44,950 bases of DNA, from assembly GCF_000327285.1 (NCBI RefSeq), contig NZ_HE998570.1, positions 39,041 through 83,990 of the forward strand, in the 5' to 3' direction. The notes below the pieces were generated by a model. The model had not been told where the DNA came from and made no database searches. It was given only the letters and a program-made list of their open reading frames with translations. The stretch is from Holdemania massiliensis AP2. Its GTDB lineage: Bacteria; Bacillota_I; Bacilli_A; Erysipelotrichales; Erysipelotrichaceae. Below are positions 39,041 through 40,323 of the stretch, piece after piece. A program made the position numbers and the translations under genes. Within the stretch, counting starts at the first letter, position 1; every line of letters starts with the position of its first letter.

Positions 39041-39052
39041 AAGGTCAGATTA

Positions 39053-39262: not shown

Positions 39263-39268
39263 TATAAT
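39263..39268 (+). promoter_or_regulatory. -10 element of the structured RNA
   Basis: TATAAT in GTTAGGTATAATTC, seven bases before the inferred 5' end near 39275. The -35 is weak. Confidence 0.5.
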
Positions 39269-39274
39269 TCTTTA

Positions 39275-39515
39275 AATATGGCTATTCAACGAAATAAGCG
39301 AGGATTCCCCCCACCTCTGCAGGGGGAGAGAAATTATCAAAAACAGGCTTAACGCAGAGGTGGGCATCGATCCCCCACGGACATGAAGTTAAGCCAATCT
39401 GGAAACGAGATAAAGGCAGCAACGCTGCCGTGTCATGTTGAGCGATATAGGACTCATCATCGGGATTGGAATAAAATAAGTTTGAGAAAAATCCAGGAAG
39501 TCCCTGGATTTTTTG
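39275..39515 (+). ncRNA. putative structured RNA of about 240 nt, class unassigned
   Basis: A forward transcript bounded by a TATAAT and a strong terminator, with no good forward coding frame. Stem 1 pairs 39310-39320 (CCCACCTCTGC) with 39354-39364, 11 bp. Stem 2 pairs 39346-39353 (GGCTTAAC) with 39388-39395, 8 bp. The strand order is 1-2-1'-2', and 2 abuts 1' with no gap, which is an H-type pseudoknot. GGGGGA at 39322-39327 can also pair with TCCCCC at 39371-39376. A hairpin GGCAGC-AAC-GCTGCC follows at 39415-39429. It matches neither 6S, SRP, RNase P nor tmRNA features I know; a raiA-type RNA has not been excluded. The 5' end is approximate. Confidence 0.6.
39487..39515. terminator. terminator shared by the structured RNA and the deoR-like gene
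   Basis: Perfect 11-bp AAAAATCCAGG / CCTGGATTTTT with a 5-base loop and T tracts on both strands. It ends 30 bases from the reverse-strand stop at 39545. Confidence 0.88.
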
Positions 39516-39544
39516 CTTTCTTAAGCACAGAATTGATTTTCCTG

Positions 39545-40323
39545 TTAAGCCTGAACGATTCGGAAACCGGCCTGCGTTAACATACTGATTTGTTCTGCTG
39601 ATGCTTGATAATCCGTGATGACCTGATCCACGCTGTCGGCGTAGCAGATCACTCTGAGTTCCGTATTGCATAGTTTGGTATGATCTGCCAGAACGACCGT
39701 TTTATCCGCCTGTCTGATCATCAGCTGCTTGATCGAATTTTCCGGTATGCTGGAACTGGTGACTGTGCCGTTCTGATCCAAGCCATTAGGCGTTATGAAG
39801 CATAGGTTGCTTCGGTAGGCTTTAACAATCAGCTCAGAAACATCATCATGAAATGATTCGTGCTGAACATCTAAGAATCCCCCAGCTAAGTACAGCTGGA
39901 TGTGCGGAGATTTTGAGATAATCGTTGCTGCGGAAAAAGAATTGGTCACAATCGTGCACGGAATTTTGGCGTCGACTATTTTTTTGGCGAGCATCATATT
40001 CGTCGTGCCGGAATCCAATGTCAAAATCATATTCGGCTGAATCAGATTCTTGACAACATAATCTGCTATTTGTTTTTTTCTTCCACTTCCCGGTTCATGC
40101 GCTTGGAAATGACGGAGTTCCGGCCGGTGCTTTCATTGGCCACCGCACCGCCGAAGACGCGCTGCAGCACACCTTCCTTTTCCAGTTTGCTCAAATCATT
40201 GCGAATCGTCGCTTCGCTGCAATTTAAAAGGACAACCAGCTCCTGCAATGTCAAGGTTCCCTTTGAGCACAATAAATCGCGGATGCGCGACTGGCGCTCC
40301 ATGGCTTTTTGTGATGTTTGCAT
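39545..40323 (-). pseudogene. DeoR family regulator interrupted by a -1 frame change
   Basis: Two frames together give a full-length DeoR/GlpR regulator of about 259 residues. The first (40323 to 40066, 85 codons) has the helix-turn-helix LTLQELVVLLNCSEATIRND. The second carries the sugar-phosphate-binding domain (LTLDSGTTNMMLA; FITPNGLDQNGTV; VVLADHTK). The first frame stops at TAG six bases past the heptamer A AAA AAC (40078-40072), read in the X XXY YYZ register. A -1 slip restores the frame as CAA ATA GCA. Either an indel in the seven-A run or programmed frameshifting would explain it. Divergent from nagA; if functional it probably controls that operon. Confidence 0.85.

Follow-up and report, generated by a model that had tools for sequence, protein, structure and literature searches.

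One copy of a small interspersed, probably mobile repeat family of Holdemania could form a perfect pseudoknot

The sequence described here probably belongs to a family of mobile repeats that are small, interspersed, structured and non-autonomous. An earlier note, made from the letters of a single stretch of Holdemania massiliensis AP2 DNA, had read it as a stand-alone RNA; we find instead that it is one of about ten dispersed copies of a hairpin-rich repeat, inserted mostly at the 3′ ends of genes. On our best reading the family is new, while its kind, the ERIC/BOX-like small mobile repeats, is known from other bacteria. The window is the whole stretch analysed, positions 39,041 to 83,990 of NZ_HE998570.1 (GCF_000327285.1; 44,950 nucleotides), and coordinates are those of the window unless another locus is named. 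G000 denotes the window's own genome and G001, G002 and G003 other Holdemania genomes; L-numbers are loci and C-numbers contigs. Table 1 lists the features of the window copy.

Table 1. Features of the repeat copy in the window and of its immediate surroundings.
Feature	Position	Strand	Description
Dispersed repeat, long form	39285..39474	+	ends TTCAACGAAATAAGCGAGGAT ... ATTGGAATAA; about ten genomic copies with the same ends; orthologous sites empty
Stem 1 of the earlier note	39310-39320 (CCCACCTCTGC) with 39354-39364 (GCAGAGGTGGG)	+	11 bp; complete in the window copy only
Stem 2 of the earlier note	39346-39353 (GGCTTAAC) with 39388-39395 (GTTAAGCC)	+	8 bp
Third pairing of the earlier note	39322-39327 (GGGGGA) with 39371-39376 (TCCCCC)	+	6 bp; complete in the window copy only
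Hairpin H1	39396..39411	+	consensus GATCT-GGAAACG-AGATC; decayed in the window copy
Hairpin H2	39415..39429	+	GGCAGCAACGCTGCC, GGCAGC-AAC-GCTGCC; compensatory changes in congener copies
Hairpin H3	39434..39461	+	CATGTTGAG / CTCATCATC; close to the repeat's right end; congeners have one pair changed on both sides
TATAAT box	39263..39268	+	upstream of the repeat and outside it; not a common feature of the copies
Intrinsic terminator	39486..39514	+	3′ of the repeat and outside it, between convergent genes

Searched at the nucleotide level, the genome from which the window comes (3.81 Mb in 17 contigs) contains about ten places with 78-89% identity, on contigs C1-C4 and on both strands, and a covariance model returned the same ten copies. 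The copies have their ends in common (left, TTCAACGAAATAAGCGAGGAT; right, GGACTCATCATGGGGATTGAAATAA), and their flanks are unrelated. Sizes span 125-190 bp: the long form measures about 190 bp and the shorter forms are internally deleted. L008 and L010 lack the segment where the pseudoknot would form, and in L007 and L009 this segment is partly missing; the left part of L006 and the right part of L010 are diverged. An origin of the long form by duplication of an arm is only suggestive. Several similar copies of less than 200 bp dispersed in one genome, absent from the orthologous sites of relatives and predicted to give a highly base-paired transcript, are what defines small interspersed (MITE-like) repeats, and all three features are seen here. 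The terminal inverted repeats and target duplication of classical MITEs (DDE transposase type) were not found: the only inverted sequence at the ends is TTCAA/TTGAA, and no target site duplication is visible at the repeat sites. These two absences, of target duplication and of long terminal inverted repeats, count against the mobile-repeat reading, as does the lack of an autonomous partner with the same ends.

By sequence comparison with relatives, the repeat is shown to insert. The upstream genes of eight copies could be located in G002 and/or G003, and the repeat follows none of them; it is absent between fmt and lepA in the congeners, and nine loci are empty in total. L008 and L007 give the cleanest empty-site comparisons; most other intergenic regions have diverged so far that the empty site cannot be placed to the base, and parts of G002 consist of N. 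The converse is seen in G002 and G003, where a diverged copy lies between a TATAAT and the leader of a CorC/HlyC-type gene (corC); this leader is empty in G000 and G001. It is the empty orthologous sites, together with this converse case, that argue for insertion. Three empty sites, those of L007 and L008 (both in G002) and of corC (in G000), already have TTCA or TCAA on their left side. TTCA(A) may be the insertion target, which three sites can only suggest, and the first five bases of the window copy, TTCAA, may have been at the target before insertion and not belong to the element.

The CorC-type gene is also preceded by a short uORF that starts MD(D/E)(S/L)PxP and has its own ribosome-binding site. 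It is conserved in four Holdemania genomes and one other genome of the family, with starts near 1339, 1342, 1267, 1330 and 1358 in the oriented loci L054 (the window's genome), L053, L055, L056 and L058, respectively. Its acidic, proline-containing start resembles that of the MgtL leader peptide, and by this analogy the uORF may sense magnesium.

In all ten copies the repeat is sense to the gene that precedes it, which free orientation would give with a two-sided probability of 0.002. Nine copies lie 3′ of that gene's stop codon, several just before a terminator; the L006 copy sits in a 5′ leader. Three proteins terminate at a stop codon that the repeat supplies: those of fmt (L002), of a comFC-like gene at L008 and of a GGDEF gene at L010. 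Most copies other than the window's directly follow a stop codon, and inspection by eye showed no promoter-like box there. The repeat is probably co-transcribed as an mRNA tail. Most copies would then be read through within the 3′ tail of the upstream gene, ahead of its terminator, where their hairpins may affect how the mRNA decays; elsewhere, insertions would mostly be lost by selection. Mobilisation would occur in trans, by a transposase.

At L010 a group II intron RNA fragment (RF02001, 58.5 bits) was detected at 1075-1265 on the minus strand (G000:C2, about 663711-663901). We discarded a link to the repeat, as the fragment directly follows a separate intrinsic terminator, 3′ of the repeat copy, and not the repeat.

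A narrower form of the mobile-repeat explanation, which we hold to be possible though unlikely, is that the repeat derives from an IS200/IS605-type element (Y1 transposase) and moves as single-stranded DNA beside the short TTCA(A) target. The missing target duplication, the hairpin close to the right end and the TTCA or TCAA that pre-exists at the left of the empty sites are in line with such a derivation, although the target evidence comes from three sites only. The genome also holds two Y1 transposase genes (C6:139552 and C1:24619) as well as TnpB. However, the covariance model gave no convincing match at the TnpA and TnpB loci, some of the C1 flank being masked, and within the unmasked part of the flank the ends around the Y1/TnpB genes look unrelated to those of the repeat. 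Searches with the end patterns, allowing 3 mismatches, recovered repeat copies only; an autonomous element sharing these ends was not among the matches. The orientation of the repeat also coincides with the local leading strand, as judged by GC skew, in nine of the ten copies (nine loci were measured, L010 lying 2.4 kb from L006), which again would fit movement as single-stranded DNA. The discordant copy is L005, whose orientation follows its gene; as the cause of orientation, transcription thus fits slightly better than the replication strand, although these data do not tell the two apart. In G002 (L081, G002:C24), at about 40-860 and close to a Y1 transposase gene, we observed short matches at an even spacing of about 67 nt, ending in GGGATTGAAA, which look like a CRISPR array.

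The pairings proposed in the earlier note are all present in the window copy: stems 1 and 2 interlock in the order 1-2-1′-2′ with zero bases between 2 and 1′, and the third 6-bp pairing and the 6-bp hairpin, our H2, were located as well. The 246-nt stretch of the window folds better than its shuffles (z = -3.15), the sense-strand fold has z < -1.9 in most repeat copies, and none of 300 dinucleotide shuffles matches the interlocked 11-bp and 8-bp pair of the window copy. The pseudoknot therefore stands above chance in this copy, but it is not confirmed as a property of the element, since sister copies break it. Across the six long copies 84% of cells pair in the two stems, and shuffles are not lower; 0 of 19 pairs changed on both sides. 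Stem 2 carries an A-C mismatch in all five other long copies, and stem 1 is in competition with local hairpins, of which TTCCC..GGGAG and GYGGG..CCCRC occur in most copies. The G002 copy offers TTCCAT/ATGGAA and CAGGCT/AGCCTG in the 1-2-1′-2′ order, scored equally high by 6 of 300 shuffles, and the G003 copy offers TTGCCAT/ATGGCAG with an imperfect second stem. While it is possible that the pseudoknot is ancestral, a similar arrangement is found in G002 only, and it seems most likely that the perfect pseudoknot of the window is a peculiarity of one copy.

Covariation, which the earlier note had proposed as the check on its stems, is instead found downstream, between Holdemania species. When the two congener copies are included, 7 pairs of H1, H2, H3 and the closing stem have changed on both sides, whereas shuffles give 2.5 and reach 7 once in 500, in an alignment that was fitted to the model and so leans towards structure. 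Among the nine copies of the window's genome alone, no downstream pair has changed on both sides, which is what drift following insertion would lead one to expect. The covariation of the hairpins between species, together with the retention of the G002 and G003 copies at one orthologous site, could point to a function beyond mobility.

Those same observations are what speaks for another explanation, in which a conserved cis-regulatory leader RNA, that of corC in G002 and G003, was copied elsewhere in the window's genome and is regulatory there: two species hold a single orthologous copy whose hairpins covary, and the L006 copy likewise lies within a 5′ leader. Yet G000 and G001 have the same leader without the repeat, so the repeat is dispensable there, and the upstream genes of the nine G000 copies that lie 3′ of genes have unrelated functions. 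We consider this explanation improbable.

A reading in line with the earlier note makes the sequence a regulatory RNA gene that stands alone, contains a pseudoknot and has a promoter and a terminator of its own, with the other copies as paralogous RNA genes; it fares no better and is in our judgement very improbable. A TATAAT does lie 16 bases 5′ of the window repeat and a terminator behind it, as had been noted, and the pseudoknot between them beats shuffles; the L006, G002 and G003 copies are also closely preceded by a TATAAT. But both signals of the window copy are outside the repeat and common to no sister copy, the sister copies preceding different terminators or none. A promoter scan returned 6 sites in 1.7 kb against a chance expectation of 2.1, so that a -10 box alone is weak evidence for a transcript start. 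Further, most other copies abut a stop codon without such a box, sister copies disrupt the pseudoknot without compensating changes, and the orthologous site of the congeners is empty. To a spread of the repeat via RNA, in the manner of a bacterial SINE that enters transcribed untranslated regions in sense only by reverse transcription or reverse splicing, we give the least credence; the sense orientation of all ten copies and of the congener copy, and the absence of target duplication, are its basis.

Two observations concern the coding context. The DeoR-type regulator adjoining the window repeat (39545-40323, minus) appears as two separate ORFs, at 40066-40323 and at 39545-40030, of which the second matches DeoRC, and is possibly frameshifted or broken. 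In addition, the reverse strand is open across three copies (window 39282-39671 minus, L005 1453-1731 minus, L004 1449-1712 plus); these ORFs of 87-129 aa share related peptide segments (..AQHDTAALLPL..), and a Pfam search with them returned no match.

The mobile-repeat family appears to be confined to Holdemania. Searches of Rfam with the window repeat and nine other loci, at gathering and relaxed thresholds, gave only chance matches on the repeat, and neither for the window copy nor for the repeat at the nine other loci did anything exceed the gathering cut-off of a covariance model, raiA, 6S, OLE and HEARO included. Rfam has no matching family, and on this point the earlier note, which left the RNA unassigned, was right. 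A model that included the congener copies, run over 273 genomes of the family, found convincing matches in three Holdemania genomes only; weak hits in G032, G004, G280, G204 and G265 look like terminators or coding sequence. Phage and plasmid collections did not contain the repeat, a pattern search of viral and GTDB contigs, from which the nearest records may be missing, returned solely the congener copy of Holdemania sp. Marseille-P2844, and none of these searches found a convincing relative outside Holdemania. A literature search yielded no description of the repeat in Holdemania. Recognising the family keeps a multi-copy repeat out of the catalogues as a new RNA class, and it illustrates that a perfect pseudoknot in a single sequence can be the peculiarity of one repeat copy.

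Several known systems resemble the Holdemania repeat in part. ERIC is a 127-bp element with TA ends and target duplication (PMC2229807). The ERIC/IRU elements of enterobacteria are similar in size class (127 bp compared to 125-190 bp), in their folded transcript and short inverted ends, and in their intergenic, co-transcribed positions, co-transcription being inferred for the Holdemania repeat (PMC2229807). Unlike ERIC, the Holdemania repeat has neither TA ends nor target duplication and has far fewer copies. We know of no sequence relation between the two. BOX, RUP and SPRITE of Streptococcus pneumoniae are enriched 3′ of genes, can be co-transcribed and extend operon tails (PMC3049150). They, too, are small interspersed repeats of a Firmicute with extensive predicted RNA structure and a location 3′ of genes (PMC3049150), and the variable internal segment is BOX-like. 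However, they number on the order of a hundred copies compared to about ten, and the Holdemania repeat is strictly sense; neither matching terminal inverted repeats nor an IS partner could be found for it. With the IS200/IS605-derived PATEs and with REP/REPIN it shares the absence of target duplication, a hairpin near the end and possibly a fixed left-site sequence, although no same-ended IS200/IS605 element was found in the Holdemania genome. HEARO and the TnpB guide RNAs are likewise multi-copy structured RNAs spread by transposons, some of them pseudoknotted, whereas the Holdemania repeat has no Rfam match and no association with the TnpB locus. What is unusual for the kind is that the orientation is strictly sense and that no partner transposon was found. 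With strictly sense copies at the 3′ ends of genes, some of which take their stop codon from the repeat, this family is a testable case of small repeats reshaping mRNA tails in a gut Firmicute.
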